This document shows positions 5,690-31,763 of a stretch of DNA of 32,835 nucleotides, in pieces. The stretch is taken from contig CAIYMZ010000088.1 in assembly GCA_903927415.1 (NCBI GenBank), positions 1 through 32,835 on the forward strand, given 5' to 3'. A program made the translations under genes and the position numbers. Numbering within the stretch: the stretch's first letter is position 1; each line of letters begins with the position of its first letter. The stretch comes from an uncultured Alphaproteobacteria bacterium (GTDB lineage: Bacteria > Pseudomonadota > Alphaproteobacteria > Rickettsiales > UBA1997). Under the pieces are notes generated by a model. That model saw only the letters and a program-made list of their open reading frames with translations. It made no database searches and was not told where the DNA came from.

Positions 5690-5726
5690 ATTGCTTCAAT
5701 ACTTGAGGCAAGTGACTTTACAAAGT

Positions 5727-6059
5727 TTAAGAAACTATTTTTGGCGGCTTTTGAGGAGAGGTATTTTGAAGAGGAAGAGAAGAAGCTAGATCGAAAGAAA
5801 AATTATCAACTTTTGCAGATTCTATAGCAAAACTTTTAGCAAGAGAAGCAAAGTCAAAGTGATGATGGCAATGACAACCGCAATCTTTGCAATCGGAAAA
5901 ATCGGAAGAGTCCGAAAGATCGTCGGAGTTATTGTAAGAGATAACCGGTTTATTTTGTGATGATTTTGAATCATCGCACTTATCTTGAGCCAGCACTTTC
6001 CCAGCAAGAGAAAGGCATAGCACTATAAGAAATGTGATACGAAGAAACTTGGTTATCAT
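5727..6059 (-). CDS. Small exported Cys/His-rich putative metal-binding protein (CzcI-like)
   Basis: Signal peptide ending near LAGKVLAQ; DCKDCGCHCHHHFDF cluster; Pro/Lys-rich C-terminus. Confidence 0.6.
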   Translation of the reverse strand: MITKFLRITFLIVLCLSLAGKVLAQDKCDDSKSSQNKPVISYNNSDDLSDSSDFSDCKDCGCHCHHHFDFASLAKSFAIESAKVDNFSFDLASSLPLQNTSPQKPPKIVS

Positions 6060-6137
6060 CCAATTACTTTGACTAAATTAAGGTTAAATCCTAACGGAGA
6101 ATATACTAAAAAATTTTAAGAAACAATTTTTAACCAC

Positions 6138-6878
6138 TTAAAATCTTAATCTTATCCCTGCGGCAACAATAAAATTATCAACTCTTTGACCAAGTTGTTT
6201 TGCTAAATCTGCCGTGCCAAAAGTTTTGGTATGATAACGTAGCGCAAAATATGGGGCGAATTTGCGAGTGATTTCGTAGCGTGTTGCAACGCCAATTTCA
6301 AAATCGGAAATGCCTGATGCCACTTCTAATTTCGGAACATCTTGAGCAAAAATCTCGGTCTCAAAATATGGTTGGGTGATTAGTTTTTGTGTAATAAAAA
6401 TATCAACTTCCTGCTTGAATCTGGCGCTGTAATTGCCCTGATCACTTAAAAAGATTTGAGCCTTAGTTTCAAACATTTGCGGAGCAAGACCTTCGAGTCC
6501 GATGGTTAAATAATTTACGTTTGTTGGAGTGAAATCAGTGCTAAAATCATGAGAAACACCAATTTGAGCATCCCAGAATTGAGAAAAATTCTTGCTGTAA
6601 AGCGCCTGAACTTCGAATATTTCTTCGTAATTGCCGTAATTTTTCTTTTCGCTGTTTATCCATAATCTATCGTAATCGCCACCAACCCAGCCGGAAAGAT
6701 CAAAACTTTTTGATCTACCATCTTGCGCCTCACCAACATCTCCTTCCAAAGTAAAAGCATGGTAAATTTGTCCATGATCATCACCGTGATCCATTTCCTG
6801 TTTTGCATCTTGCGCAACGGCAATTCCGCTGAGGAAAAAAAATAATAAAGATGAATTTAAGAAAAATTTTACTCTCAT
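6138..6878 (-). CDS. pcoB: Copper resistance protein B (PcoB/CopB) outer-membrane family
   Basis: FDLSGWVGGDYDRLWINSEKKN, QAQIGVSHDF-like strands, terminal aromatic beta-strand GIRLRF; adjacent to a multicopper oxidase. Confidence 0.88.
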   Translation of the reverse strand: MRVKFFLNSSLLFFFLSGIAVAQDAKQEMDHGDDHGQIYHAFTLEGDVGEAQDGRSKSFDLSGWVGGDYDRLWINSEKKNYGNYEEIFEVQALYSKNFSQFWDAQIGVSHDFSTDFTPTNVNYLTIGLEGLAPQMFETKAQIFLSDQGNYSARFKQEVDIFITQKLITQPYFETEIFAQDVPKLEVASGISDFEIGVATRYEITRKFAPYFALRYHTKTFGTADLAKQLGQRVDNFIVAAGIRLRF

Positions 6879-8560
6879 TATTTACCCTCCTTATCAACGG
6901 TTACACTAGTCATCATGCCGCTTGCCATATGAAGAAGTAAGTGGCAGTGAAACGCCCATTCACCGGCTTCATCGGCGGTTAAAAGCAGGGAAACGGTTTT
7001 AGCTGGCGGAACAATCACTGTGTGTTTATTTGGCAGCCATTGCATTTTCTGGCCATTTTCTAACTGCATAAATATGCCGTGTAAATGAATCGGATGTGCC
7101 ATCATGGTTTCATTGACAAATTTTAGGCGCACTCGTTCGCCATATTTCAAGTGCATTGGCTTGGGGAATTTTTCACCGTTAATTGTCCAAATGTAACGGT
7201 TCATGCTGCCACCGAATTTGAATTCGATTTCACGAATTGGTTTTCTTAAATCTTTTTGCGGATGAAGAGAGACAAGATCAGAATATTCTAAGGCTTTATT
7301 GCCTTTTGGTGTGCCGCGATCTGCCCAGCCGCTTTTTACATTATCCATATTCATTCCGGTCATACTCATACTTCCGCTCATATCCATATCACTCATGTCG
7401 TGACCCATAGCTGAATGATCCATGCCTTCCATTTTATCGTCACTCATCTTATTGCCGCCGTGATCCATTCCTTTCATGTCACTCATACCATCATTATTCA
7501 TTCCTTGCATACTGCCATGATCCATGCCTCCCATCGCCATATCTGCCATGGTTAAAACTGTGCGGGGGCGCATTTTTGGAATTTCACCGGACATTCCTTC
7601 TTTTGGCGCTAAAGTTCCTCTCGCATATCCCGTGCGATCAATTGACTCAGCAAAAATTGTGTAAGCTTTATCTTCTTTTGGCTCAACAATAACATCATAA
7701 GTTTCAGCAACACCAAAACGGAATTCATCGGCAATTACCGGCTTTACCTCCTGCCCATCAGCTTCAACAAATTTCATTTTTAAGCCAGGAATTGAAATAT
7801 CATAAATCGTCATCGCCGAAGCATTGATGAAGCGCAGTTTTACACGCTCACCTTTTTTGAAAATTCCTGTCCAGTTTTGTTCAGCGGTTTTGCCGTTTGT
7901 TAAGAAATGATATTTGGTAACATCCGATAAGTCTGTTGGGTCCATACGCATTTGACCCCAATCCATGTAATCACGCCAAGTTGCTGAAAATCCGTTCTTT
8001 TTTATATCAGAAAAAAATGTGAAAATTGTGCGCTTGTTGTAGTTGTAATAGCCAGAATCGATTTTGAGATTGTTAAGAACGGTGTTGGGATTTTCTTCAG
8101 TGAAATCAGAAAGAAGAATTACATATTCGCGATCTGCTTTTGTTTCGCTTGGCTCAATCACGATTGATCCGTAAACACCTTGTTGCTCCTGCAAATTTGA
8201 ATGCGAGTGATACCAATAAGTTCCTTTTTGTCTGACTTTGAATTTGTAAGTGAAAGTTGTGTGCGGCGCGATACCGTGAAATCCGTTTAAACCAGGAACT
8301 CCGTCCATTGATCCATCAAGCAAAATTCCATGCCAGTGAATTGAAGTTACTTCATCCATTGAGTTTTTTACCTTCATCACGACATCTTCACCTTCTTTAA
8401 AGCGCAAGGTTGGGCCAGGAATTCCTCCATTGATGGTGATTGCTTCCACCGCTTTGCCGGTGATAAAAACATCCTGCTTTTTGATTTCTAAATCATAAGT
8501 TTTAGCAAAAGCTGATGATGTAAAAATCGTGAGGAAAACTGTTAAAAGAATCTTCTGCAT
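6878..8560 (-). CDS. pcoA: PcoA/CopA-type multicopper oxidase with Met/His-rich insert; start at MQKILLTVF
   Basis: Copper-site motifs SIHWHGI, GTYWYHSHS, HPIHLHG, HCHLLLHMASGM; Met-rich GMDHGSMQGMNNDGMSDMKGMDHGG...; start lies 4 nt after the ATPase stop. Confidence 0.95.
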   Translation of the reverse strand: MQKILLTVFLTIFTSSAFAKTYDLEIKKQDVFITGKAVEAITINGGIPGPTLRFKEGEDVVMKVKNSMDEVTSIHWHGILLDGSMDGVPGLNGFHGIAPHTTFTYKFKVRQKGTYWYHSHSNLQEQQGVYGSIVIEPSETKADREYVILLSDFTEENPNTVLNNLKIDSGYYNYNKRTIFTFFSDIKKNGFSATWRDYMDWGQMRMDPTDLSDVTKYHFLTNGKTAEQNWTGIFKKGERVKLRFINASAMTIYDISIPGLKMKFVEADGQEVKPVIADEFRFGVAETYDVIVEPKEDKAYTIFAESIDRTGYARGTLAPKEGMSGEIPKMRPRTVLTMADMAMGGMDHGSMQGMNNDGMSDMKGMDHGGNKMSDDKMEGMDHSAMGHDMSDMDMSGSMSMTGMNMDNVKSGWADRGTPKGNKALEYSDLVSLHPQKDLRKPIREIEFKFGGSMNRYIWTINGEKFPKPMHLKYGERVRLKFVNETMMAHPIHLHGIFMQLENGQKMQWLPNKHTVIVPPAKTVSLLLTADEAGEWAFHCHLLLHMASGMMTSVTVDKEGK

Positions 8561-8564
8561 ATTT

Positions 8565-10724
8565 TTAAATTTTAATTGTTTTGAGACGAAGAGCATTCGC
8601 AACCACTGATACATCACTCAAAGCCATAGCAGCCGCCGCGATCATCGGACTTAGTTGAAAACCAAATAAACCAGCTGCTAAAGGGATTGCCAGAGCATTA
8701 TACCCAAAAGCGAAAAACAGATTTTCCTTAATGTTGCGAATAGTTTTTTTGGAAAGATGAAAGGCTTTAACCAGCTTCGCCAAATCACCATGCAGCAGAA
8801 CAATTCCTGCGCTTTCAATCGCCACATCAGTTCCATTTGCAACTGCAATTCCGACGTCAGCCATTGCCAAAGCCGGAGCATCGTTAATACCATCTCCAAC
8901 CATGGCCACAACTTTTCCTTCAGATTTTAATTTGGCGATAATTTGACTTTTTTCCTGCGGTAAAATTTCGGCGAATACTTCAGAAATTCCTAATTCTTGT
9001 GCAACTTTTTCAGCAGTTTTTTTACCGTCTCCGGTGAGCATTACAATTCTTAAACCAAGATTTTGCAGCTCTTTTACTGCTGCAAGAGTTGTCGATTTTA
9101 GAGCATCTTCAATTGCAAATAGACCGGCAAGTTTTTGATTGATGGCAATAAAAATTACCGTCGCACCATGTTCTCTAAGTTCTTCCGCTTTTGTCTTTAG
9201 CTCTTCACAATCAACAGAATTTTCCGCTAGGAATTTGGCATTGCCGATGAGGATTTTTTGATTTTCGACTTCACCACTAACACCTTTTCCGATTGGAGTA
9301 ATAAAGTTTTTAACCTCAAGAAAAGAGATTTTATTTTCTTTGGCATAATCGGTTATCGCTTTGGCAAGCGGGTGTTCACTGTGATTTTCGAGACTTGCAG
9401 CAAGCTGTATAATTTCTTTTTCAGCAAAATTTTTACTCGGAATAATTTTGGTTAAGCGCGGTTTTCCTTCGGTTAAAGTTCCGGTTTTATCGACAACAAT
9501 CACATCAACTTTTTCCATTCTTTCTAGGCTTTCAGCATTTTTAACCAACACACCATTTACCGCTCCCTTGCCAAGTGCCACAATGATTGACATTGGTGTG
9601 GCAAGTCCCAGAGCGCATGGGCAAGCGATGATTAAAACTGTTACTGCCGCTACTAAACCATGAGCTGGATTGTTAGCAAAAATCATCCAGCTAAAAAATG
9701 TTACGATGGCAATTGCAATGACGAGTGGCACAAACCATGCGGCAACCCGATCAACCAATTTTTGAATTTTGGTTTGACCTTGTTTAGCTTCATTTACCAT
9801 TTTGATTATTTTACTGAGCATCGAATCTTCGCCAATCTGCAAAACTTTCATCACAAAAGAACCGTCCTGATTGATGGTTGCACCAATTACCCTGTCGCCA
9901 ATTTGCTTTTTTATCGGCATTGATTCACCAGTAATCATGGATTCATCAATATTGCTGGCACCTTCAGTAATTTCACCATCAGCAGGAATTTTCTCACCAG
10001 GACGCACTCGCAATAAATCACCGGCTTGGATTTGTTCGATGTTAATTTCTTCTTCACCATTTTTGGTAATACGATGGGCAATTGTGGGAGTAAGTTTCAA
10101 CAATGCAGAAATTGCGCTGGAAGTATTTTTATGCGCTTTAATTTCAAGAATTTGGCCTAGTAAAACCAGCAAAGTAATTACAGCTGCCGCTTCAAAATAA
10201 ACCGAAATATGACCTTCTTGATCTAAAAATTCGACGGGGAAAATTTGTGGGAATAAAACTGCGATAAGGCTGTAAGCCCATGCTACTCCTGTTCCAAGGG
10301 CAATAAGAGTGAACATGTTTGCTGAGCGGTTTTTTAAAGAATCGACAGCTCTTTTAAAAAAAGTAAATCCGCTCCAGAACACAACCAAACTTGATAAAGC
10401 TAGTTGAATAATCTGGGAAGTTTTAGCGGATACAATCGCATTCGATTCAAAAAAATGCTCACTCATTTCCAAAACAACGATTGGTAAGGTCAGAATTAGC
10501 GCAACTAAAAATCGTTTTTTAAAATCGAATAATTCCTCGTCAGAATCATCTTCGATTGATGAAACTTCAGCCTCTAAAGCCATTCCACATATTGGACAAT
10601 TCCCTGGCTTATCTTGCCTAATTTGCGGATGCATCGGACAGCTATAAGTAACATTTGATTGGCTTTTGTTTTGCGAAGCAGCCTTGTCATTACCACCGCA
10701 ACATCCTGAATGATTACCGTTCAT
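8565..10724 (-). CDS. copA: P1B-type copper-exporting ATPase with N-terminal heavy-metal-binding (CPMHP..CPICGM) domain; start at MNGNHSGCC
   Basis: [39 protein letters not shown]-terminal [16 protein letters not shown]-term [25 protein letters not shown]. Confidence 0.95.
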
Positions 10725-10751
10725 ATAAAAATTTTTTGAATAAAAACTTAC

Positions 10752-10790
10752 TTGACAGATACTATAGGGCAGTATATCATCTGATGTCAA
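10752..10790. promoter_or_regulatory. Overlapping divergent sigma70-type promoters with internal CsoR-like palindrome
   Basis: Plus: TTGACA 10752-10757, 17 nt, TATCAT 10775-10780. Minus: TTGACA 10790-10785, 18 nt, TATAGT 10766-10761. Palindrome ATACT-ATAGGGC-AGTAT 10759-10775. Confidence 0.75.
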
Positions 10791-10810
10791 TTAACTTTTT
10801 CATTTTTTTC

Positions 10811-11164
10811 ATGAATAAAAATTTAAATAAATCCCAGACCAAAAAACCTTTGGTCAATTCTAAAGAAAAAAAGAACTGTTGCGATGCCATGCAATATCCA
10901 GATCACAGCAATTTGTTGCCGAATGTAAACCGCGTTGCCGGACAGATTGAGGGGGTAAAAAAAATGATTACTGAGAGGCGCTACTGCCCTGATATTTTAC
11001 AACAATTGAAATCAGCCAAATCAGCAATTGCTTCAATTGAGGCTGCAATGCTGGAAGTGCATATGGATTCTTGCGTTACTAATGCGTTCAACTCTCAGAA
11101 TGAAAAAGAAAAAGCTAAAAAAATTGCCGAGCTAAAAGTTTTATATCGTCGTTTTAACAATTAA
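10811..11164 (+). CDS. csoR: CsoR/RcnR-family copper-sensing repressor; start at MNKNLNKS
   Basis: NRVAGQIEGVKKMITERRYCPDILQQLKSAKSAIASIEAAMLEVHMDSCV: Cys ... His-x3-Cys ligand pattern as in CsoR. Confidence 0.9.
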   Translation: MNKNLNKSQTKKPLVNSKEKKNCCDAMQYPDHSNLLPNVNRVAGQIEGVKKMITERRYCPDILQQLKSAKSAIASIEAAMLEVHMDSCVTNAFNSQNEKEKAKKIAELKVLYRRFNN

Positions 11165-11176
11165 TTTTTTTGCAAA

Positions 11177-11872
11177 ATGAGCTTTGAAATTATTCCAAAT
11201 TGGCATCCGATTTTTGTGCATTTTTCAATCGCACTTTTATCCGTCTCAAGCGCGCTACTTATTATTGGAAAATTTGCGCCGCAGAAATATTTGTGGAGAA
11301 ATACTGTACTTACTGTTTCTAGGTGGAATCTTCTGATTGGAGCTGCAATTTCAATCGCGACAGTTCTAGCTGGCTGGTATGCTTACAACACGGTAAATCA
11401 TGATGATCATTCGCATCTTGCCATGACCTCTCATATGAAATGGGCTTTGGGAACTTTCTCTCTGTTTGTTGTGGTAGCGACATGGTCTCTTACTATGCGC
11501 AAAAAAGAGGTAGGATTTTTGTTGATGTCATTCCAACTATTTGCCACATTGATGCTTCTTGTAACTGGATTTAAAGGTGGAGAGTTAGTTTATCGACATG
11601 GTTTGGGAGTGATGTCATTGCCTGAAGCAGAAGCTGGCGAAGGACATGAGCATCATCATCACGATCATGATAGTCATGAGCATAGTAAAAACGAAAACTC
11701 ATCAGATGAAAAAATCGATGTTCAAAAAGATAAAGCTGATTATGATAAGGCAAAAAAGATTAAGAAAGTCGCTCCGAAAACTGATAAGGTAAAGCAAGAT
11801 AAGAAAGCTGCTGTAGGTGATGATTCTGGTGAAGAAAGCGAAGAGCATGAACATCACCATAACCATGAATAA
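11177..11872 (+). CDS. DUF2231-like membrane protein with His-rich cytosolic/periplasmic tail
   Basis: NWHPIFVHFSIALLSVSSALLIIG, several TM segments, tail HEHHHHDHDSHEHS ... EHEHHHNHE. Confidence 0.75.
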   Translation: MSFEIIPNWHPIFVHFSIALLSVSSALLIIGKFAPQKYLWRNTVLTVSRWNLLIGAAISIATVLAGWYAYNTVNHDDHSHLAMTSHMKWALGTFSLFVVVATWSLTMRKKEVGFLLMSFQLFATLMLLVTGFKGGELVYRHGLGVMSLPEAEAGEGHEHHHHDHDSHEHSKNENSSDEKIDVQKDKADYDKAKKIKKVAPKTDKVKQDKKAAVGDDSGEESEEHEHHHNHE

Positions 11873-11892
11873 CAAATATAAAAAAATTCTAA

Positions 11893-13149
11893 ATGATTAA
11901 AAAGATCAAATATTCGAAATCATTAAAAGATTCCAACAGGGGATTGATCTCGTCTTTTTTGGTTTTTATTTTATCTACTACAATTTCTGTAGCAGGAACC
12001 ATGCAAGTGCAGCAGCACATGACATTCGATGAATTCATAAATGCTGCACAGGAACAAAATTTAGATCTAAAAATTGAATCCGAAAAATCCAAAGCTGCTC
12101 GCTCAAATGCCAAAGGAGCAAGAATACCACCTCCGATAGTCAGCTACACAAAAGTAACAGACAGAGCCGGAAACTCCGCCAATGGTCTTGAAGTCAATCA
12201 AACAATTCCATTTCCAAGCAAACTTACCGGCGATTATGAAGCAAGAAAATATGAAGCCAGAGCGCAAGAAGAAAGTCGTTTGGGAGCAGAGTTAGAAACT
12301 CTAGCCAGAGCCCGAGTCTTATATTTCAACCTCTGGGCCAGTCAGCAGCAAAACAAAGCGTTACGTGAAAAAAAGAATGGGTTTGCACAACATATCAAAC
12401 TTTCTCGCGCCTCTGTCAGGTCAGATAGTTTTCTTAAAATTCACCTACTCAATACCGAATCAGAATTTGATTCTGTAGAAAATGAAATAATTTCCTCTGA
12501 GCAAAATATTAAAGAAAAAGAAGCGCTGCTTGCGGGATTTTTAAATTTAGATCCATCTTCATTTCATCCGACATTGGATGAGCCACCAATGTTAATTCTT
12601 CCTCAAGAAAAAATATCGAACAATTCACATCAACTTGAAGCAAAAAGATTGACCGTTGAAAGTTTTAAAGCGCGTGAAAAATCTGCTAAATCTAGCTGGC
12701 TTCCCGATTTTTATCTTCGTTACAAAAATGTACAACAGACACAAGTAGGGATGTCTGGCTATTCCGAAGCAACAATTGGTGTTAGCCTGCCTTTTGTTTT
12801 TCCAGGAGATCCTTTATCCAATTCAGAAAAAACTTCGGCTCTGCGATCGGAATCACAGTTTGAATATGAAAGAGACAAGCGAAAAATCGAAGTCGAAAGA
12901 AGTATTCTCTTTGAAAAAATATCGTCACTCAAAAAACAGATCTACAACATCAAAGAAAAATTACTTCCCCGCGCGGAAAAGCGCATGAAGACCGTTTATA
13001 ATCTCGCTCCAAGAGATCCCGAAGCACTGCAAGATCATTTAGAAGCGATGCAATCCTTTCCAAATTTAAAACTCAAAATCATCGATTTGAGAATGCAATA
13101 TGAAGCATCAGTTGCAGAAATTCTAAAATATGAACGAGGTACAGAATGA
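11893..13149 (+). CDS. cusC: TolC/CusC-family outer-membrane efflux protein
   Basis: OEP-like coiled-coil; MTFDEFINAAQEQNLDLKIESEKSKAARSNAKGA; ATG of next ORF overlaps its stop. Confidence 0.8.
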   Translation: MIKKIKYSKSLKDSNRGLISSFLVFILSTTISVAGTMQVQQHMTFDEFINAAQEQNLDLKIESEKSKAARSNAKGARIPPPIVSYTKVTDRAGNSANGLEVNQTIPFPSKLTGDYEARKYEARAQEESRLGAELETLARARVLYFNLWASQQQNKALREKKNGFAQHIKLSRASVRSDSFLKIHLLNTESEFDSVENEIISSEQNIKEKEALLAGFLNLDPSSFHPTLDEPPMLILPQEKISNNSHQLEAKRLTVESFKAREKSAKSSWLPDFYLRYKNVQQTQVGMSGYSEATIGVSLPFVFPGDPLSNSEKTSALRSESQFEYERDKRKIEVERSILFEKISSLKKQIYNIKEKLLPRAEKRMKTVYNLAPRDPEALQDHLEAMQSFPNLKLKIIDLRMQYEASVAEILKYERGTE

Positions 13150-14060
13150 AAAAAATTGTGATTGGAATTATCGTAACATTATTAGTAATTGTAGGATTTT
13201 GGGTATCTAAAAAAGATTCAAATAAATCTGCTGCGAAGGAAAATGCCTCGATGGAAAATGAATCAACCATGAAGATGGAAAAAACTAATAAGTCTTACTG
13301 GACCTGTCCAATGCACCCTCAAATTCACATGGATCATCCAGGGGAATGCCCGATTTGCCACATGACGCTGGTTAAGGTAGAAGAGCAAGTTGAAGAAAAA
13401 TCTGATAACCAATCAAGCAAAAATGAAAATATGGCGGATATGCCAATGATGTCAAATCAAGGTGGTGGTGAAAAAAGAGCTAAATCTATAAAAGTAAAAC
13501 CAGCTCAAATTGAGCTTTCAGGAATTCAAAAACAGACAGTAGAAAAAATGGATCTCATTGCACGCATTCCCATATCTGGTCGCATGTTATCAAATTCATC
13601 AGTGGCTTTTCAGGTGTTTGAAAAAGATCTAAAATACATTCATTCGGGCCTTAGTTTTAAAGGCGAAAGCGACATTTATTCAGGAGAAGAAATTTCTGGA
13701 ACCATCACTTCAGTTGATTCAATTATTGATCCCACCAGCCGCACAACTCGTGTTATAGGCACTATTCGTAAAGGTCCGCGCGGATTAATTTCCGAAGCTA
13801 GTTTTCGTGGGGAAATTCAAATTGAGCTTAAAGACAGAACCGCAATTTCAGAAAGTTCTGTTCTGCATACCGGAAAAGGAGCGTTGGTTTATCTCTTTGA
13901 AGGAGAAGACAAACTAACCCCTAAGACAATTGAATTAGGTTTGAAAACAGAAGGATTTTACGAAGTAATTTCCGGTTTAAAAATAGGCGATGTCATCAGC
14001 TCTGGTCCTAATTTTTTGATCGACTCGGAAGCAAAAATTCGAGGAGGAGCGAATGATTAA
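13146..14060 (+). CDS. cusB: CusB-like periplasmic adaptor, unusually short (304 aa), with N-terminal heavy-metal-binding domain
   Basis: YWTCPMHPQIHMDHPGECPICHMTLVKV; VAFQVFEKDLKYIHSG; GTITSVDSIIDPTSRTTRVIGTI; GLKIGDVISSGPNFLIDSEAKI. Position between cusC and cusA. Confidence 0.8.
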   Translation: MKKIVIGIIVTLLVIVGFWVSKKDSNKSAAKENASMENESTMKMEKTNKSYWTCPMHPQIHMDHPGECPICHMTLVKVEEQVEEKSDNQSSKNENMADMPMMSNQGGGEKRAKSIKVKPAQIELSGIQKQTVEKMDLIARIPISGRMLSNSSVAFQVFEKDLKYIHSGLSFKGESDIYSGEEISGTITSVDSIIDPTSRTTRVIGTIRKGPRGLISEASFRGEIQIELKDRTAISESSVLHTGKGALVYLFEGEDKLTPKTIELGLKTEGFYEVISGLKIGDVISSGPNFLIDSEAKIRGGAND

Positions 14061-17000
14061 AAAAATTATCGAGTTCTCCGCTCATAATCGTTTTCTCATT
14101 CTATTTTTTACTACCGTTACCGTTTTTTTTGGAATTTATTCGCTTAAAAAAATTCCGCTCGATGCCATTCCTGATTTATCCGATACCCAAGTCATTATCT
14201 ACTCCAAATGGGATCGTTCTCCCGACATCATGGAGAATCAAGTCACCTATCCGGTTGTATCCGCTATGCTTGGATCGCCAAAAGTAAAATCGGTGCGCGG
14301 ATTTTCGGATTATGGATTTTCTTATGTCTATGTGATTTTTGAAGATGGAGTTGATCTTTATTGGGCAAGAAGCCGTGTCCTGGAAGCGATGAATCGAATT
14401 ACTTCGCGGCTTCCGAATGGTGTAAAAACCGAAATCGGTCCTGATGCCACCTCAGTTGGCTGGGTTTATCAATATGCTCTGAAAGATGAATCAGGACGCT
14501 TTAATGCTGCTGATCTGAGATCAATGCAAGATTGGCTGATTCGCTTTCAGCTGCAATCAGTGCAAGGTGTTGCTGAGTTGGCATCTATTGGCGGCTTTGT
14601 TAAGCAATATCAAATCAAGGTTGATCCAACAAAACTTCAGCTCTTCCAGGTGACCATGGGTCAAGTCATGGAAGCAGTTAAAAATTCGAATCAGGAAAGT
14701 GGTGGTCGCACTATTGAATTCTCTGGTACTGAAGCAATGGTGAGAAGTCGTGGACTCGTTGATAAAGTGGAAGATATTGAAGATGCTGTCGTGGCCTATA
14801 ATCCCAGAAGTCGCGCTCCAATTCTGGTTAAACAACTAGCTTCAGTTTCTATAGGACCTGAGATGCGCCGCGGCATTACCGATTTTAACGGAACTGGCGA
14901 TACAGTTGGTGGAATTGTGGTGATGAGACAAGGTGAAGATGTTCCTGCTGTGATTGGTCGCGTCAAAGATAAAATCAAAGAAATACAAAAAAGTCTTCCG
15001 CAAGGAGTGAAGATTGTTCCGGTTTACGATCGTTCGGATTTAATAAAGCGCGCTATCGCAACTCTAAAATCAACATTGGTCGAAGAGTTGATAATCGTGA
15101 GTTTGGTAATTCTTTTTTTCCTTTGGCATATACCATCAGCACTGATTCCGATCGTTACTATTCCTGTCGCAGTAATCATATCTTTCATTCCACTTTATCT
15201 GATTGGACAGAGTTCCAATATTATGTCTCTTGCAGGAATTGCGATCTCCATCGGTGTTCTGGTTGATGGTGCAATAATTGAAGTAGAAAATACTTATCGA
15301 AAAATTCAACATTGGGATGAAGCGGGACGAAAGGAAGATTTTTTTCAAATCAGACTTGAAGCAATAAAACAAGTTGGCCCTTCGGTATTTTTTTCTCTGC
15401 TAGTAATAGCAGTTGCTTTTATTCCAATCTTTACTCTAGTCGATCAAGAAGGACGTCTCTTCAAGCCGCTAGCCTTCTCGCAAAACTTCGTGATGGCAAT
15501 TGCAGCAATTCTGGCCGTGACACTGAATCCGGCGATGCGCATGATGTTTACCAGAGTTGATAAATTTTCCACTCCGAAAAAATGGCTAAATGAAATTGGC
15601 AACAGAGTGTTGGTTGGAACTTACTACTCCGAGCATAAGCATCCAGTCAGTAGAAAACTTTTTACAATCTACAGACCGGCCATTGATTGGGTTTTAAAAT
15701 ATAGAAAACTCACTCTTAGTTTGGCAGTTGTTGGTATGCTCTCAATCATTCCAGGTTTTATGATGCTCGGATCTGAATTCATGCCAACTCTGCATGAAGG
15801 AAGTTTGCTTTATATGCCAACAGCACTCCCTGGAATTTCCGTCAGCGAAGCGCAGCGAGTTCTGACTATTCAGGATAAAATCCTCAAATCTTTTCCGGAA
15901 GTAGACACGGTTTTTGGTAAATCAGGAAGAGCTGAAACCTCAACAGACACCGCACCGCTGAACATGGTGGAAACTACAATCACATTAAAGCCAAAATCAA
16001 AATGGCGAAAAATAAATCGTTGGTATTCCTTCTTGCCTAATTTTCTAAAAAGCCCTTTCGAACATATTTGGCCAGAAACTATCAGTGAAGAACAGCTCAT
16101 TTCCGAAATAAATGAGAAGCTGAATTTCCTTGGCATGCCTAATATCTGGACGATGCCGATAAAAAATCGCATCGATATGTTATCGACCGGAATCAGAAGT
16201 CCGGTAGGCATTAAAATTTTCGGGCCTGATCTACAAACCATTCAGGCAATCGGCAAAAATATTGAGCAAGAATTAAGAACTTTAAATGGCACCAGAACCG
16301 TAATTGCTGAAAGAATCGCCAGCGGTTATTTTCTCGATGTAGATTTTGATCGAGAAAAACTAAAATTATTCGGACTCTCTCTCAAAGATGCACAAGACCA
16401 GGCGATGGTTGCAATTGGCGGAGAAAATGTTTCTCAGATTTTAGCAAATCGCGAAAGATATCCCATTCAAGTAAGGCAAGCGCCGGCATTTAGGCAAGAT
16501 GTGGAAAGCATCAAACGAGTTCTGATCACCAGCAATACCGGCGCACAAATTCCGCTGAGCTCGGTTGCAAAAATTCATTTTAGAGAAGGTCCGAGCATGA
16601 TTCGTGATGAAAATGCCTCACTGGTTGGCTATGTTTATATTGATGTTGATCCAGCTAAGATTGATGTTGGCACTTACGTCAAAAAAGCAAAAACCCAGCT
16701 CAAAGATAAAATTAAAATACCGGAAGGTTACATCGTTTCATGGAGTGGACAATTTGAGAATATGATACGGGTAAAAGAGCGCCTGAAAGTTATTATTCCC
16801 CTAGTCCTAGTTTTGATTAGCTTCCTACTTTATTTAAATACGAGATCTTTGACAAAAACCGGAATCATTTTATTGGCGGTGCCATTTTCTTTGATTGGAG
16901 CGGTTTGGATATTGATTATTCTTGGTTACAATCTCTCAATTGCAACTTGGGTTGGAATGATAGCGCTTCTTGGTCTTGATGCCGAGACCGGTGTTTTTAT

Positions 17001-17307
17001 GCTGATGTATCTTGATTTTGCTTTTGACGATTATGTGAAGAGAGGCAAAATGAATTCTCTCGCCGATTTGAAAAGCGCAATAATTGAAGGCGCTGTCCAC
17101 AGAATCCGCCCCAAATTAATGACGGTATCAGCTCTATTTATTGGTCTTATTCCTATCATGTGGTCCGTTGGAACTGGAGCAGACGTCATGAAGAGAATCG
17201 CCGCTCCTATGATTGGCGGCCTCTTCACTTCATTTCTTTTGGAACTTCTGATCTATCCGGTGATTTTTTATATTTGGAAGGAAAAGGAAATGAAGTCGGT
17301 ACAATGA
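14053..17307 (+). CDS. cusA: CusA-type copper/silver RND transporter, 1084 aa
   Basis: IPLDAIPDLSDTQVIIYSKW, GSEFMPTLHEGSLLYMPTALPGIS, IKNRIDMLSTGIRSPVGIKIFG, GLDAETGVFMLMYLD. Confidence 0.95.
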   Translation: MIKKIIEFSAHNRFLILFFTTVTVFFGIYSLKKIPLDAIPDLSDTQVIIYSKWDRSPDIMENQVTYPVVSAMLGSPKVKSVRGFSDYGFSYVYVIFEDGVDLYWARSRVLEAMNRITSRLPNGVKTEIGPDATSVGWVYQYALKDESGRFNAADLRSMQDWLIRFQLQSVQGVAELASIGGFVKQYQIKVDPTKLQLFQVTMGQVMEAVKNSNQESGGRTIEFSGTEAMVRSRGLVDKVEDIEDAVVAYNPRSRAPILVKQLASVSIGPEMRRGITDFNGTGDTVGGIVVMRQGEDVPAVIGRVKDKIKEIQKSLPQGVKIVPVYDRSDLIKRAIATLKSTLVEELIIVSLVILFFLWHIPSALIPIVTIPVAVIISFIPLYLIGQSSNIMSLAGIAISIGVLVDGAIIEVENTYRKIQHWDEAGRKEDFFQIRLEAIKQVGPSVFFSLLVIAVAFIPIFTLVDQEGRLFKPLAFSQNFVMAIAAILAVTLNPAMRMMFTRVDKFSTPKKWLNEIGNRVLVGTYYSEHKHPVSRKLFTIYRPAIDWVLKYRKLTLSLAVVGMLSIIPGFMMLGSEFMPTLHEGSLLYMPTALPGISVSEAQRVLTIQDKILKSFPEVDTVFGKSGRAETSTDTAPLNMVETTITLKPKSKWRKINRWYSFLPNFLKSPFEHIWPETISEEQLISEINEKLNFLGMPNIWTMPIKNRIDMLSTGIRSPVGIKIFGPDLQTIQAIGKNIEQELRTLNGTRTVIAERIASGYFLDVDFDREKLKLFGLSLKDAQDQAMVAIGGENVSQILANRERYPIQVRQAPAFRQDVESIKRVLITSNTGAQIPLSSVAKIHFREGPSMIRDENASLVGYVYIDVDPAKIDVGTYVKKAKTQLKDKIKIPEGYIVSWSGQFENMIRVKERLKVIIPLVLVLISFLLYLNTRSLTKTGIILLAVPFSLIGAVWILIILGYNLSIATWVGMIALLGLDAETGVFMLMYLDFAFDDYVKRGKMNSLADLKSAIIEGAVHRIRPKLMTVSALFIGLIPIMWSVGTGADVMKRIAAPMIGGLFTSFLLELLIYPVIFYIWKEKEMKSVQ

Positions 17308-18668: not shown

Positions 18669-19994
18669 TTAGCTGTTCAGTTCGTTTGATAATGAGTGAA
18701 GCCCTTCTTTAAAAATTCTAATGTTTAGACCATCCGGATTGATGGTGATATCTTTGACCAAAAGACTGACTATTCTTGCTTGTTCGATTGGGAATAATTC
18801 ATCCCAGACTTTTTCGATTTGCTTGAAGGAATTTATGACAACGCTTTCCGAAATTTTTCCTGCTGATTGGCTGATGGTGTTAACAATAAATTCCGGTTTT
18901 TTTAGCAAACCTAGAATTTGATTCGTGACTAAATTTTCCGCTTCGACTGCGGATATTCTTCCCACTTTGCAAGAATCGTTATTGCCGACCGCCTTATATG
19001 AACAAAGGTAATAGCGGTATCTTTTGCCTTGTTTGTTGGTGTAAGTCGGAATCATTTTACTGCCGCAAACTCCACAATTCATAATGCCTTTCAGAAGCGG
19101 TGCTGTAGTTATTCTTGTTACCGGAATTGATGGTTTGTTGTCCTGATTTTTACCAAAAATATCCTTTGTTTTTTGCCAAACATTTTCAGAAATGATTGCT
19201 TCGTGAAGGCCGTTATAGAGCTGATTCTTGTGCCTAATCTTTCCGGCATAAATCGGATTTTCTAACACTCTTCTAACATTTCTTTTGTTAAAATTTTGAC
19301 CTTTTTGCAGCTTATCGGTTTTTGAAACCCAGGTCTTAGTTTCAAAGCCATGTTTATTTAATTCTCTGGCGGTTTCGGTTATCGATTCAGTTTCAATAAA
19401 AGTTTGAAATAAAACCCTGACAATCTTCGCTTCCGCTTCATTGATTACGAGTTTTTTATCCAGGATATCATAGCCAATTGAAGGATTCCCGCCCATCCAC
19501 ATTCCTTTCTTTTTTGATGCGTCAACCTTGTCTCTGATGCGTTCGCCGGTTAGCTCTCTTTCGTATTGAGCAAAGCTGAGCATCACATTTAACATCAACC
19601 TTCCCACGGAATCATCGGTAGTAAAGTTTTGAGTAACCGATGCAAAGCTGACTTTTTTCTGATCAAAAAGTTCAATGATTTTTTGGAAGTCAAAAAGCGA
19701 TCTGCTCAAGCGGTCAATTTTGTAAATGACCACGCAGTCAATTTTATTTTCCTCAATATCACGAAAAAGTCGCTTCAATGCTGGTCTTTCAAGCGTTCCT
19801 CCGGAAAACCCTCCGTCATCGTAATGATCATCAATCAGAACCCATCCTTTTCCAACTTGCGAAGCGATAAAATTTTCACCGGAAAGCCTTTGAGCATCAA
19901 TTGAATTAAATTCCTGCTCCAAACCATCTTCACTAGATTTTCTAGTATAAATGGCACAGCGAATTTTTGGCTTTACGCTAAGTTCTTCTGTCAT
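18669..19994 (-). CDS. Serine recombinase (resolvase N-domain, recombinase domain, zinc ribbon)
   Basis: AIYTRKSSEDGLEQEFNSIDAQR, DCVVIYKIDRLSRSLFDF, FAQYERELTGERIRDK, CGVCGSKMIPTYTNKQGKRYRYYLCS. Confidence 0.95.
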   Translation of the reverse strand: MTEELSVKPKIRCAIYTRKSSEDGLEQEFNSIDAQRLSGENFIASQVGKGWVLIDDHYDDGGFSGGTLERPALKRLFRDIEENKIDCVVIYKIDRLSRSLFDFQKIIELFDQKKVSFASVTQNFTTDDSVGRLMLNVMLSFAQYERELTGERIRDKVDASKKKGMWMGGNPSIGYDILDKKLVINEAEAKIVRVLFQTFIETESITETARELNKHGFETKTWVSKTDKLQKGQNFNKRNVRRVLENPIYAGKIRHKNQLYNGLHEAIISENVWQKTKDIFGKNQDNKPSIPVTRITTAPLLKGIMNCGVCGSKMIPTYTNKQGKRYRYYLCSYKAVGNNDSCKVGRISAVEAENLVTNQILGLLKKPEFIVNTISQSAGKISESVVINSFKQIEKVWDELFPIEQARIVSLLVKDITINPDGLNIRIFKEGLHSLSNELNS

Positions 19995-20958: not shown

Positions 20959-22140
20959 ATGCAAACAAAAATAAAGAAGTTCATTCGCAACACTCCCGAA
21001 GAAGATCTCAAATCCTTCCTTAACGATTACGAACTGAATTTGCCGGAGAATTTTAAGTGGCGAAATGGTGACAGAAAATATCACGCTCAACTTTTTAATT
21101 CGATCTGGAATACCAACGAAGATCGCAAAGCACATCTTTTTGAAATTATCGAACGCATTCACGAAATGGTTGATGAACTTGGGCAAGCTGCATTGCAGGC
21201 TCAACCGGTAATCGGCAGTAACGATAATTTTCTGAGTTTAAAAAGTGAAAATTCACGCTGCATTTGGGCACTTCAAAATCACCCGCTGGAATTTCAGAAA
21301 GCCGAATATTGCGCGTCATCAGATTACAAAAGAAAATCCCGCGAATGGAGTTCGTTTGTTGCACCAAAAGGAAGGGAAATTCAAAACTCGGCAGAACAGA
21401 TAGAGGATTTTAAACAGCTGGTTCTCCAGCATTTCAACATCAGCCGCAAAATTAAAGTTGATCTTTTTGATAGAATTAAAGCTGATCACAATAACAAAGA
21501 GATCGTGGTTTTTCAGCTAGTGGCTTATCATGATGGATTACACAGATCGGTGCAAACCTTTGACAAGGATGAGGTCGTCACTCAATTCATCTCCTCTGTG
21601 AATGAATTTTCTATATCCTACGAACCTCACAGCGGCATAGTTGAAGTAGTTTCCGATTATAAAGATAATCGCGACAAATTAGCCAAAGCCTTCGTTAATG
21701 CTTTTCTAAAGATTGATGAAGATGTTGATGAAGTTCCGCTTAAAAAATTCGATCTTTCAAAGCTGAATGTTCCTTACGATTTCATGAAAGATGTTGATGC
21801 GACTGATTTGATTGATGATGTCAAAGTAACTCTTCTCAAGCTCAAACCGCATAACAGCAGAAACTCCACAACCATTGAAGCGTTGTTTAGTGAACATCGC
21901 TCAATTTACGATCTTGCTCAAGAATGGTATGCACAAAATAACCCTCTTCACGGCTCTTTCTCTATCAAGAAAGCCAGGCTGTCGATCAAGTTCAAACCAA
22001 CCGACAAAAATCCGCGTGGAAAACTTCTGCATGTGATGATTACCGATCCCAATGGCTGCGATTTGAAAGACCGCTCCGAAAGAGAAAAGATGATAGGAAA
22101 TAAATATTTAGAACGATGGGGATTAATGGAAAGAATATAA
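20959..22140 (+). CDS. Hypothetical protein (393 aa), gene 1 of two-gene cassette
   Basis: Long ORF with consistent codon usage; no family recognised by eye. Confidence 0.75.
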   Translation: MQTKIKKFIRNTPEEDLKSFLNDYELNLPENFKWRNGDRKYHAQLFNSIWNTNEDRKAHLFEIIERIHEMVDELGQAALQAQPVIGSNDNFLSLKSENSRCIWALQNHPLEFQKAEYCASSDYKRKSREWSSFVAPKGREIQNSAEQIEDFKQLVLQHFNISRKIKVDLFDRIKADHNNKEIVVFQLVAYHDGLHRSVQTFDKDEVVTQFISSVNEFSISYEPHSGIVEVVSDYKDNRDKLAKAFVNAFLKIDEDVDEVPLKKFDLSKLNVPYDFMKDVDATDLIDDVKVTLLKLKPHNSRNSTTIEALFSEHRSIYDLAQEWYAQNNPLHGSFSIKKARLSIKFKPTDKNPRGKLLHVMITDPNGCDLKDRSEREKMIGNKYLERWGLMERI

Positions 22141-23090
22141 CGAAAATTTCGGCGCAGATTTGCAAATTATTGATGGAAATTGTGGAGCAAAAAAATCCCA
22201 ATATTTCTCACTCGTTTTTGAGTTCTGAATTTGGTAATGATGTAACAAAATTTTTGTTAAAAGAAAATTATTTGACTAGCGGACATAGCCTTGAAACCTA
22301 TTGGATTAGTGGTGAAGACAAAGATGTCGATGTTGAATGGAATGAAAAATTAAACTCTTTTGCTTATCTCTCACTCAGCGGAAAATTCACAGTAATAAAA
22401 GAAGATGAATTAAAAACTTACGATGCAGACATTTCAAAAATTATAAATTTTTTAGCCGCAGAATTTGATGTTTTAGAAAGCAGTAAAACCAAACAAAATC
22501 AACATCTCGAAGGTCTTTTATATTTTGTTGGAAATGCTCAGATTGGTAAAAAGAAAGTCGCAATATTTTTTGCTCGAAGATTAAACGACAACTCAGTTTT
22601 TAGAAAAATCGAAGAGTTCTTTATCAAAGAATCTACATCCTCTCTACCCAAGCTAATCCTCACTTCATCGAATCATCTCTGCCCCGAATCTCTCAAGACA
22701 AAAGCTAAAATTATCCCCATTCCAAAACTGCTTGGTCTGGCCAACAGCAAGGCTTTATTCAATATTGACTATGTTGCCAATATTTTATTTGGCAGCAGCG
22801 ATGATGATACAAAACCTTATGCTCACTGCTCAGAAGATGGCTCTACTCTTTTTGTCGGAGATAAAAATTGGGATGTTAAAGGTCAAAGCCAGCGCCAAGT
22901 TATTAAGATCATGTGCGAATTATACTCTCAAAATCCTGACAGCAAAATGCGGTGGAATGCCGTGTTATCAATGGCAGACCTCGATGAAAGCTATTCTCGT
23001 TTCAAAGATTTATTCAAAAAAAGTTCCGTGAAAGATGCTATTGACCATGGAAAAGGTTTTGTCTGGTTCAAAACCGCAGAAATTTCTTAA
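22116..23090 (+). CDS. Hypothetical protein (324 aa), gene 2 of two-gene cassette; alternative start 22173
   Basis: Overlaps the preceding ORF by 25 nt; C-terminal part looks like a winged-helix-type region. Confidence 0.75.
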   Translation: MGINGKNITKISAQICKLLMEIVEQKNPNISHSFLSSEFGNDVTKFLLKENYLTSGHSLETYWISGEDKDVDVEWNEKLNSFAYLSLSGKFTVIKEDELKTYDADISKIINFLAAEFDVLESSKTKQNQHLEGLLYFVGNAQIGKKKVAIFFARRLNDNSVFRKIEEFFIKESTSSLPKLILTSSNHLCPESLKTKAKIIPIPKLLGLANSKALFNIDYVANILFGSSDDDTKPYAHCSEDGSTLFVGDKNWDVKGQSQRQVIKIMCELYSQNPDSKMRWNAVLSMADLDESYSRFKDLFKKSSVKDAIDHGKGFVWFKTAEIS

Positions 23091-28212: not shown

Positions 28213-30321
28213 ATGGAAAACTTTTTAGATTTTAACAGTGCCAATAATCAGCAAAGCAGTCCTGAGAGACTTGATTCTGAGGTAGTCAGAGAAGCTCTAC
28301 TTAACAGGATTGAAGATACTTTATTTTATCTTTTTCCAAGTGGTCATGTTCGAAATAACTGCTTTCACATCGGCAGCACCAAAGGCGAGCCAGGCAAGAG
28401 TCTGATCGTTCAACTTGGTGGAGAAAAACAAGGCAACTGGTATGATTTTTCTGAAAATACCGGCGGCGATATTTTTAGCCTTTGGTCAGAAGTCAGGGGC
28501 TATCATAAATCGGATTTTAGCAAACTGCTTGCTGAAGTAAGTCAGTGGCTTGGAAATCCAATAGTAACAAGAGAAAATCGCGCGACTCATTCTTACAATT
28601 CCAGTGATGATCTCGGCAAGCCAACTGCCAAGTGGGATTACTTTGATAAAGAAGGAAAGTTAATCGCCTGCGTCTATCGCTACGATACCGAAGACGGCAA
28701 AGAGTTTAGAGTTTGGGATGTAAAAAACAGAAAAGCCAAATCACCTGATCCACGACCACTCTACAACATTCCTGGCATTTTTTCTGCCAAAAAAATCATT
28801 CTTGTCGAAGGTGAAAAGTCGGCAGACAGCCTGATCGCTTTTGGCTTTACCGCCACAACCGCAATGTTCGGCGCAAGCGCTCCAATCAATAAAACTGATT
28901 GGTCGCCGCTCTTGGGAAAGGAAGTAATAATCTGGCCAGACAATGATGATGCAGGTTTGGAATATGGCAAAAAAGTCGCCGCACACCTGCTTAAAGTTGC
29001 TTCCTTCGTTTCGATTGTAACGCCTCCAAAAAACAAGCCGCTCAAGTGGGATGCTGCTGATGCGGTTCTAGAAAATTTTAACATCCAATCACTTTTCGAA
29101 GTAGCAAAAGGAATCGAGTCAAAACTGCCAAGCTATTCGATTTCTGAATTCCTAAAAGATAACAGCCCGATGCCGGAGGACTTGATAACACCAAGACTTC
29201 TAACGCCCGGTGGAATGTTGTTAATTGGTGGCGCACCCAAAGTTGGAAAAAGTGATTTTCTGATCAATTTTTTAATTCATCTAGCCGCCGGTGAAAGTTT
29301 TTTAGGATTAAAACCACCAAGACCTTTAAAGATTTTTTACCTGCAAGCAGAGATCGGCTACCACTACATGCGCGAACGCATTAAGAAGCTCGCAATCTCA
29401 AAAGAAACCTTCTTCAAAGCCTCAGAAAATCTGATCGCAACATCTCAGGTTAAGATGATTTTGAATGAGCAAGGCGTTGAAGCGACTTACCACACCATCA
29501 AGCATTATTTCCCGAATCAGACTCCCGATATTATCTGCATTGACCCGATCAGAAATGTATTTGATGGCGGTGAAAATGGCAGCGAGAACGATAATAATGC
29601 CATGCTGTTTTTCTTGCAGAATCGAGTCGAGAAACTCAGGTCGATGCTAAATCATGACATGGGAATTATCCTCTGTCACCACACCAAAAAAATTAAGAAG
29701 AAGGATGTTGAAGATGATCCATTCCAAGCATTTTCCGGCGCCGGAAGTTTAAGAAGTTTCTACAGCAGTGGCTTGATTCTGCATCGTCCAAGCGAGTATG
29801 AGCCAAAAATACATCTTCATTTTGAACTTAGAAATGGCTCGGCGATTCAAAGAAAAATTATTGAGAAAGTTGATAATAAATGGACTGAACTAAATCCGTT
29901 TTCTGAAAGATTAGTCAGAAGAGATTATGGCGAGAAGCTAGATGCTGAAAGAGATCGCAAGGCTGATGCAATTTTAGAATTGATAGAGTCGGAAGCGCTT
30001 TTGGGAAATGTTTACACCGCTCATCAATTTTCTGAGAGGTTTGAAAACCAAGCTGGGCTTGGCTGCATTGATAGCATTAGCAAAAGAATATCCGTTTTGG
30101 CAACCAAGGGTTATGTCAGATTTAGTCGTAACTGGCCAGAATTTGGTTTGAGAGGCACGCGTTCAAAATACGGCATACTGTGTGTTCAGCACATGAAGTT
30201 TACCACAAATGGAGTGGCAAAAACAGTCCTGCCCACCCACTTCAAATGTCCAAAGATCGGATCTGTTTTGGAAGTAGAAAATGCAGAAATCTGGCCGATA
30301 TATGAGGAGGAAAATGCTTAA
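28213..30321 (+). CDS. Phage primase-helicase (Toprim + RepA/AAA_25-like ATPase); start MENFLDFN
   Basis: ILVEGEKSADSLIAFGF, VIIWPDNDDAG, LLIGGAPKVGKSDFLINFL, IICIDPIRNVFDGG, GIILCHHTKK. Confidence 0.9.
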   Translation: MENFLDFNSANNQQSSPERLDSEVVREALLNRIEDTLFYLFPSGHVRNNCFHIGSTKGEPGKSLIVQLGGEKQGNWYDFSENTGGDIFSLWSEVRGYHKSDFSKLLAEVSQWLGNPIVTRENRATHSYNSSDDLGKPTAKWDYFDKEGKLIACVYRYDTEDGKEFRVWDVKNRKAKSPDPRPLYNIPGIFSAKKIILVEGEKSADSLIAFGFTATTAMFGASAPINKTDWSPLLGKEVIIWPDNDDAGLEYGKKVAAHLLKVASFVSIVTPPKNKPLKWDAADAVLENFNIQSLFEVAKGIESKLPSYSISEFLKDNSPMPEDLITPRLLTPGGMLLIGGAPKVGKSDFLINFLIHLAAGESFLGLKPPRPLKIFYLQAEIGYHYMRERIKKLAISKETFFKASENLIATSQVKMILNEQGVEATYHTIKHYFPNQTPDIICIDPIRNVFDGGENGSENDNNAMLFFLQNRVEKLRSMLNHDMGIILCHHTKKIKKKDVEDDPFQAFSGAGSLRSFYSSGLILHRPSEYEPKIHLHFELRNGSAIQRKIIEKVDNKWTELNPFSERLVRRDYGEKLDAERDRKADAILELIESEALLGNVYTAHQFSERFENQAGLGCIDSISKRISVLATKGYVRFSRNWPEFGLRGTRSKYGILCVQHMKFTTNGVAKTVLPTHFKCPKIGSVLEVENAEIWPIYEEENA

Positions 30322-30646
30322 TAATTTCTCCAAAAAACTAGGCAAGAAACCAAGTTCAGAATCAAGTTCAGAACAAAATCAGAATCTTAGGAACTTACCC
30401 CTCAAGCCAATACCAGAGCAAGTTCCGCATTTTTTGTTTAAGTTCAGAAAGTGCGAATTGGCAAAACCATCCTCAAGCCTTGCATTACTTGGCTTCATCC
30501 AAGTTCAGAAAGTTGTCAAAAATAATCCAAAAAAATTCAAGTTCAGAAACACGCGAAACTTGCTACAGGCAAGACTGCATGACCTTATTTCAAGTTTATG
30601 GTGTGTATACCCCCCATATACTATGGGGGTAAGAATACCCCCGTAG
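30314..30646 (+). CDS. Small basic hypothetical protein
   Basis: ATG at 30314 preceded by gaggaggaa; overlaps the primase-helicase stop. Composition odd, so coding status uncertain. Confidence 0.4.
   Translation: MLNNFSKKLGKKPSSESSSEQNQNLRNLPLKPIPEQVPHFLFKFRKCELAKPSSSLALLGFIQVQKVVKNNPKKFKFRNTRNLLQARLHDLISSLWCVYPPYTMGVRIPP
30352..30548 (+). repeat. Five direct repeats AAGTTCAGAA (iteron-like)
   Basis: Exact copies at 30352, 30364, 30440, 30501 and 30539. Confidence 0.85.
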
Positions 30647-30660
30647 TTGTTTATGGGGTA
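30611..30660. promoter_or_regulatory. Interlocking C-tract/G-tract inverted repeats
   Basis: cccccata-tac-tatggggg (30611-30629); gggggta-agaa-taccccc (30625-30642); tacccc...ggggta (30636-30660). Confidence 0.6.
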
Positions 30661-30707
30661 TCACGAATTCACGGATCGTTTTTTCAAAACAACAAAATCA
30701 AAAAATT

Positions 30708-31181
30708 ATGAACAGTAAAAAAATTTTAGCTCTCGATCTTGGAACAAAAACCGGATGGGCAATCAAATCAGAAAATCAAATTACCAGTGGTACGATTGAA
30801 TTTAAGCCAAGCAGATTCGAAGGCGGCGGCATGCGCTATCTTCGATTCAAAAAATGGCTGGAAGAAATTTATCAACTAACAAACGGCATTGATCGCGTCT
30901 ATTTTGAAGAAGTCAGAAGACATATTGGAGTGGATGCAGCTCATGCCTACGGTGGCTTCTTAGCTTATCTTACAAGTTGGTGTGAAGAAAATAAAATTCC
31001 CTACCTAGGCATACCAGTTGGCACGATCAAAAAACACATCACAAAAAAAGGTAACGCCGGCAAATCGCAAATCATGATCGAGGTAAAAAAACTCGGATTC
31101 AATCCGGTTGATGACAACGAAGCAGATGCTCTAGCTCTACTCAATCTCGTGATCAAGGACTATGAAGGAGGTGTTTTATGA
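30708..31181 (+). CDS. RuvC-like Holliday junction resolvase
   Basis: ILALDLGTKTGWAI, VYFEEVRRHIGVDAAHAYGGF, GTIKKHITKKGNAGKSQ, DDNEADALALL. Confidence 0.9.
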   Translation: MNSKKILALDLGTKTGWAIKSENQITSGTIEFKPSRFEGGGMRYLRFKKWLEEIYQLTNGIDRVYFEEVRRHIGVDAAHAYGGFLAYLTSWCEENKIPYLGIPVGTIKKHITKKGNAGKSQIMIEVKKLGFNPVDDNEADALALLNLVIKDYEGGVL

Positions 31182-31390
31182 GTGATGAGAACCCTTTAAA
31201 ATGCAATCTCGGACGCATTCAACCAAAGCAAATTGATGCCGAAAAAATTAAACGCGAAGGCTGGAACAATGACGGAATTTTGGTCGTCAAAGTTGATGAT
31301 GAAAGATTGAGCTGGCCTGAGAAAGAGCTGATCAAGCAGATCGGCGATAAAATTTACAAAAATAAAAAAGGAGCAAAACATGCAAAATAA
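31178..31390 (+). CDS. Hypothetical protein (70 aa)
   Basis: ATGA overlap with the resolvase gene; followed by an overlapping ORF. Confidence 0.6.
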   Translation: MSDENPLKCNLGRIQPKQIDAEKIKREGWNNDGILVVKVDDERLSWPEKELIKQIGDKIYKNKKGAKHAK

Positions 31391-31763
31391 AGAAAAAATC
31401 TGGACGGAAGAAATGGTGATTCACGCCTTTGAAGAAGCGATCAGAACGCTAAAAAAACTGCCGTCAGAAAAGCTGCGTGATTATTTCACGAGTTGGCCTG
31501 AAGTGATTTACACGCCAATCGAAATCATCAGAATGGATCAGAAGCCAAAGAAGTGGCCGGCAACGCGGGAGAGCATTTCACGCATGGAAAAGACCTGTAG
31601 CTGGATTCATTTTCTTAAAGAAATCGAGGAAAGAAAATTGATTTGGCTACGCGCCAAAAGGACTCCGTGGAAGTTAGTTTGCGGTGAGCTTGGCTTTTCC
31701 AGAGCAACTGCCAATCGAAAATGGAAAAATGCTATACGCCAAATTACTCTCAAATTAGACTGA
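31380..31763 (+). CDS. DUF6362-like protein with C-terminal HTH
   Basis: WTEEMVIHAFEEAIRTLKKLP ... WPATRESISRMEKTCSWI ... LVCGELGFSRATANRKWKNAI. Confidence 0.75.
   Translation: MQNKEKIWTEEMVIHAFEEAIRTLKKLPSEKLRDYFTSWPEVIYTPIEIIRMDQKPKKWPATRESISRMEKTCSWIHFLKEIEERKLIWLRAKRTPWKLVCGELGFSRATANRKWKNAIRQITLKLD

Follow-up and report, generated by a model that had tools for sequence, protein, structure and literature searches.

A candidate iteron origin beside a prophage primase-helicase gene, with repeat words that change among relatives

The locus and its repeats

The window is the whole stretch of DNA analysed here, 32,835 nucleotides of an alphaproteobacterial contig (CAIYMZ010000088.1), and its closest named relatives are alphaproteobacterial MAGs. 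A large serine recombinase gene (18669-19994) precedes a replication module that comprises, in order, a Sak4-like protein, a phrog_2300 protein, a helicase, a primase-helicase, a repeat array, a RuvC-like resolvase and a DUF6362 protein. Beside the prophage, a copper/heavy-metal resistance cluster (window 1429-17307) encodes two AcrB/CusA-type RND pumps, two outer-membrane efflux proteins, CopB, a multicopper oxidase, a P-type ATPase with a heavy-metal-binding domain and a CusB-like protein, and is adjoined by a tRNA-Ala (GGC) gene at 1048-1123. Two neighbouring ORFs of 393 and 324 aa (window 20959-23090), located after the integrase region, yielded no significant Pfam or PADLOC match. The features in and around the array are as follows, with primase-helicase residues numbered such that codon 28210 is residue 1.

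28213-30321, + strand: primase-helicase (Toprim and AAA_25), the presumed initiator; Pfam Toprim 2e-5 and AAA_25 4.5e-18, phrog_239 DNA primase/helicase 1e-59
30001-30195, + strand: C-terminal winged-helix region, residues 598-662; AlphaFold2 pLDDT 84, with the element order of a winged helix
30067-30108, + strand: predicted recognition helix, residues 620-633; helix 70-83 of the model of residues 551-703, and covariation
30304-30310, + strand: Shine-Dalgarno sequence GAGGAGG, within the final part of the primase-helicase gene; nearly all relatives have it
30314-30646, + strand: ORF over the array; one frame open in 69/69 relatives, no third-position excess
30351-30361, + strand: iteron 1, CAAGTTCAGAA
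30363-30373, + strand: iteron 2, CAAGTTCAGAA
30419-30429, + strand: variant iteron CAAGTTCCGCA, which is the word of a relative (L017)
30439-30449, + strand: iteron TAAGTTCAGAA
30500-30510, + strand: iteron CAAGTTCAGAA
30538-30548, + strand: iteron CAAGTTCAGAA
30591-30601, + strand: degenerate last site CAAGTTTATGG, matching the position of the relatives' isolated last iteron
30604-30662, no strand: extended hairpin or two-hairpin element; inverted repeats and fold, with compensatory changes in the relatives' counterpart
30708-31181, + strand: RuvC-like Holliday junction resolvase; phrog_159 1e-24
31380-31763, + strand: DUF6362 protein, a conserved downstream neighbour; PF19889 2e-27

The original prediction, that of a candidate phage origin, named five exact copies of AAGTTCAGAA at 30352, 30364, 30440, 30501 and 30539, and these were confirmed, all on the + strand and spanning 30352-30548. 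Their offsets from the ATG at 30314 (38, 50, 126, 187 and 225) use all three codon phases, as had been claimed. When the 333-nt ORF was shuffled 3000 times with dinucleotides preserved, no 10-mer exceeded two copies, versus the five observed, and the window stretches listed outside the array region likewise hold at most two copies per 10-mer. The word is not repeated throughout the genome. No further exact AAGTTCAGAA occurs in the window, where nine one-mismatch copies are scattered, and the genome-wide count that had been proposed as a check found CAAGTTCAGAA seven times in the 1.55-Mb, 175-contig genome, four of these in the array.

Overlooked at first were a sixth copy, the variant AAGTTCCGCA at 30420, a degenerate copy CAAGTTTATGG at 30591 and the hairpins at about 30604-30662, all of which are parts of the same element as the five exact copies. 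As in iteron origins, short repeats are clustered beside the gene of the presumed initiator. An AT-rich unwinding element beside the array was not evident in the window, GC skew showed no switch and was uninformative, and no Rfam match was obtained for the window array or 12 related loci.

Arrays, reading frame and hairpins in relatives

Viral contigs and alpha-, beta- and gammaproteobacterial genomes share a syntenic interval, usually of 260-500 nt, between the primase-helicase and RuvC genes, and at the corresponding place Wolbachia phage WO and dozens of proteobacterial prophages have an array. Related prophages had been suggested as a check, with absence of the motif from close relatives sharing the replication gene to count against an origin. 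Literally, this absence is what we found, in that no relative carries the exact AAGTTCAGAA array, and a search of viral contigs for the exact window word retrieved no more than isolated pairs, with two copies at most of the loci. The literal reading is misleading, however, because each relative bears its own word at corresponding sites (for example CAGTTGGCA, CAGTTTGCA, CAGATTGCA and CAGAATCCA). Most of the syntenic intervals examined contain a repeated 8-11-nt word above shuffled expectation, and a held-out set of 80 novel intervals has the same pattern of own repeated words. Across the beta/gamma group, the position and orientation of the sites are kept (counted from the primase-helicase stop: 17+, 32-, 53-, 67+, 81-, 130+, 137+, 149-, 157- and 206+) and the word is altered in all sites together. 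With this comparison, the reading of the repeats as origin-type iterons appears strongly supported.

The words fit a common frame, AG-x1..x6, with 22 types in 71 loci. They include AGTTGGCA, AGTTTGCA, AGATTGCA, AGATGGCA, AGAATCCA, AGTTTGAC, AGTTCCGC and AGTTGGGA, and the window's own word in this frame is AGTTCAGA; those of a freshwater clade (L024-L029) are weak and degenerate. Words were assigned by hand for L029 and L191, L173 and L198 were excluded as not fitting the AG[TA][TA] frame, the truncated L162 was left out, and L191 is absent from the stratified and tree statistics owing to its broken C-terminal reading frame. In the excluded L198, the Acidithiobacillus phage AcaML1, both the repeat, CCGTCAGACCCG, and the primase-helicase C-terminus depart from those of the others, and the phage is not counted as support; its repeat (GGTCTGACGG / CCGTCAGACC) sits in the equivalent short gap (L198 7242-7370).

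In Wolbachia phage WO, whose RepA is about 35% identical to the window protein, copies of AAG[TA]TGGCAA start around the RepA stop codon, and seven of the 12 in the 65.6-kb record fall within 210 bp directly at the RepA 3' end (L196 5869-6078; KX522565.1 62148-62357), the sole cluster in the complete record. No RuvC gene follows in WO or in Endozoicomonas (L164, L167, L169 and L179), where the ORF is lost and the repeats are retained; in both, AT-rich TATATATA tracts come after the last iteron. The annotation of WO gp5 notes similarity to RSF1010 RepA, and the WO literature, in the portions available, treats the host chromosome's ori and not WO's own.

The small ORF lies beside the primase-helicase as described, its ATG overlapping the end of that gene, and the strong ribosome-binding site is likewise in place. 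One frame starting from an ATG or GTG at the primase-helicase stop is open in all 69 loci, versus 12-13 for the other forward frames, a result somewhat favoured by our choosing the start that gave the longest frame. In 78 of 80 held-out loci the ORF has at least 60 codons, and it often continues in frame into RuvC or stops on the RuvC start codon. The ribosome-binding site and the open frame would suit a functional protein in which the repeats are codon-level repeats, as would a mild excess of synonymous changes between close pairs (332 vs 214 expected). Nevertheless, we hold this to be most improbable, as the repeats lie in three frames, the amino acids change along with the word, substitutions by codon position in close pairs (401/501/447) have no third-position excess, the ORF product has no family match, and the WO and Endozoicomonas arrays do without the ORF. 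The frame is kept and the peptide hardly so, with weak or no amino-acid constraint, and conservation at the level of DNA rather than protein, as first proposed, is strongly supported by the relatives. The ORF is likely a translated corridor through which expression of the following gene is coupled, so that origin and coding frame would share the same DNA. At L124, L129 and other beta/gamma loci, the array ORF and the RuvC-like resolvase are read in one frame totalling about 259 aa, and the N-terminal part of such fusions would be the encoded iteron array; the annotated RuvC start may therefore differ between genomes.

The element 3' of the array is predicted to form two hairpins or a three-way junction, and eight of its 16 predicted pairs have a two-sided compensatory change among 18 beta/gamma sequences. 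By analogy with the stem-loops of pRN1, which were proposed to serve primase loading (PMC4234260), these hairpins may have a role in loading the primase. Covarying hairpins, together with the pairing of + and - copies into hairpins in the beta/gamma group (many inverted pairs) and the probable translation of the region, could also point to an element acting as RNA, its words forming mRNA hairpins that are bound by protein or control RuvC translation. Yet the exact copies in the window all have the same direction and hence do not pair among themselves, pairing alone needs no single word common to all copies, and the residue that covaries with the word belongs to the predicted recognition helix, within a winged-helix fold of the kind that reads DNA. 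An RNA element is, in our judgement, very unlikely, although in the beta/gamma group the many inverted pairs leave some room for a role as RNA.

Covariation of the word with the winged helix

In the model of residues 551-703, residues 620-633 are helical and are followed by a beta wing that includes residue 642, so that one turn of the presumed recognition helix separates residues 620 and 624. Residue 624 (codon 30079-30081) is Ser in the window. Pfam HTH_65 (2e-5) matches the winged-helix region in relatives; a sequence search of solved structures retrieved nothing significant, and Foldseek against the PDB gave at most weak Fur/MarR-type winged-helix matches (best E 0.017).

The primase-helicase columns that shared most mutual information with the word were C-terminal, with residues 620 and 624 leading for x3 and 642 for the whole word. 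A coarse first stratification admitted phylogeny and read-through ORFs and was replaced by finer strata and independent pairs. When permuted within strata, residue 624 came first for x3 at three phylogenetic cut-offs among 2102 columns of eight module proteins. The tree for the pair test was built from residues 2-560 only; it implies 13 changes of x3 to or from G, and across independent pairs R624 went with x3=G in 8.4 concordant and 0.0 discordant of 9 (p ~0.008), while the next best of 583 primase-helicase columns reached 4.4 concordant pairs.

The rule in the first set was that N624 accompanies x3=T, R624 with R/K621 accompanies G, and A624 accompanies AGAAT or AGAAA. In held-out viral contigs, N624 occurred with T in 12/12, R624 with R/S621 occurred with G in 45/45, A/I/L/Q/V624 (or S624 with R621) occurred with AGAAT in 9/9, and R624 with D/H621, an exception already apparent in the first set, occurred with T in 8/8; these counts are not independent because many of the loci are related, and the pair test is the fair measure. 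As R624 with D/H621 mostly goes with T (L021 is the exception), the residue-624 code depends on context. The window's combination of Ser624 with x3=C is otherwise found only in L017, and so it is in the relatives that the R/N code is shown. In helices of this type, Arg usually contacts guanine and Asn the adenine opposite T; the fit of these preferences to the residue-624 rule is suggestive only.

Closely related loci offer natural experiments. Over residues 2-560, L250, L274 and L246 share 94-96% identity, and L250 and L274 (96%) have five differences in the winged helix, including residue 624. L250 combines N624 with an array of CAGTTTGCAG and L274 combines R624 with CAGTTGGCAG, such that nearly all of about 10 iterons differ T/G, and the spacer DNA has diverged. 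In the freshwater clade, R624 is found with AGTTGGCA (L025 and L031) and N624 with AGTTTGCA in weaker arrays (L024, L026, L028 and L029). Among near relatives of the window, L021 has R624 and AGTTGGGA, versus S624 and AGTTC in the window and L017. WO has R624 within LGSERSIRER (SERSIRER).

Word and winged helix are about 300-500 bp apart, and since the winged helix adjoins the array, recombination could move both together, leaving them co-inherited as neighbours without contact. We find such linkage hardly credible as the whole explanation, given independent same-direction changes at one recognition-helix residue, the absence from the top columns of those of RuvC, which is equally near on the other side, and a rule that holds in WO at about 35% identity. 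Each of the explanations by RNA hairpins, linkage alone or a coding function breaks down on particular points. Of the steps in our proposal, recognition of the iterons by the primase-helicase has the best support and, judging from these comparisons, is highly likely.

Proposed function, known systems and significance

We propose that the C-terminal winged helix of the upstream-encoded primase-helicase would bind the iteron copies, with the recognition helix (620-633), and residue 624 above all, reading the variable middle of the word. Several bound copies would lead to assembly of the helicase ring and DNA opening, with the adjacent hairpins aiding assembly or priming, and the array ORF would convey ribosomes on to RuvC. 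Clustering, the conserved layout of the sites, the joint change of the word, its covariation with residue 624, the swap in a natural near-isogenic pair and the open frame are what the analysis shows; physical binding, origin firing, the hairpin role and translational coupling we infer. The repeats are very probably docking sites at which the viral primase-helicase starts DNA copying, and we think it quite probable that the array (30351-30601) would act as the (pro)phage replication origin, read by its own primase-helicase.

Covariation speaks for recognition, not initiation, and the array might be bound by the primase-helicase as a control locus, whether for copy number or incompatibility, like P4 crr, or as an autoregulatory operator; in P4, both ori and crr are bound by alpha. 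The window has no second array, though, the complete WO record has this cluster only, and the adjoining covarying hairpins fit an initiation site. We consider a control locus unlikely; that the array is the sole one, and the parallels with P4 alpha, lambda and pRN1, favour an initiation site.

Initiators that read iterons and bring their own primase and helicase are a known mechanism class. The likeness to lambda ori that had been drawn is a partial fit: the iterons are indeed within an ORF, but this is not the initiator gene, and their likely reader is the upstream primase-helicase. Lambda carries its iterons inside the initiator's own gene (O), whereas here they occupy a separate ORF with little amino-acid constraint, and lambda and Stx iterons are almost identical, whereas here words differ between close relatives. 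P4 alpha comprises a Toprim-type primase, a helicase and a C-terminal origin-binding winged helix and is accompanied by ori/crr iterons. The window protein similarly has Toprim, helicase and C-terminal winged helix in one polypeptide, next to short iterons. Unlike in P4, the array sits within an ORF immediately 3' of the gene, and no sequence relationship was found between P4 alpha and the window primase-helicase. The P4 alpha helicase is SF3, whereas here it is AAA_25 (RepA/RecA-like) with no SF3 match in Pfam, and the window protein would therefore work like P4 alpha without being a member. RSF1010 oriV has iterons and hairpin primase sites, served by RepA (the helicase), RepB' and RepC; the window resembles it in iterons, hairpins and a RepA-type helicase, but has one protein where RSF1010 has three separate ones.

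pRN1, which has been compared with P4, has a C-terminal winged helix (in ORF904) and an essential element with a structure-conserved stem-loop directly downstream of the gene (PMC4234260). Plasmids of this type share with the window the C-terminal winged helix and the element directly 3' of the replication gene; unlike the window system, pRN1 has no iterons and an archaeo-eukaryotic primase. Geminiviruses come closest to this combination of fixed positions and fast-changing words, in that their iteron positions and repeat pattern are conserved and the sequences are diverse, each with a cognate Rep (PMC12548392), although these are eukaryotic viruses with an unrelated initiator fold and rolling-circle replication.

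Literature searches in an open-access collection, from which most subscription papers are missing, turned up neither this family nor its word/residue covariation, and an earlier description is possible. On balance we lean towards a widespread, undescribed class of prophage origins in which the iteron word is dictated, through a readable code, by whether residue 624 is R, N or small/hydrophobic, origin identity has been repeatedly rewritten, and the origin is hidden in a translated corridor to RuvC. Sequence alone would then suffice to place the origins of a large proteobacterial prophage group and of Wolbachia phage WO, for which the residue-624 reading, if true, predicts an apparently unmapped origin. 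The locus would also be a case of an origin maintained inside an open reading frame whose peptide has no evident use. Repeated rewriting of the word, if true, would provide many potentially orthogonal replication specificities, and a winged-helix initiator whose specificity is switched in nature by a single residue would make the divergence of replication specificity and incompatibility testable in laboratory plasmids.
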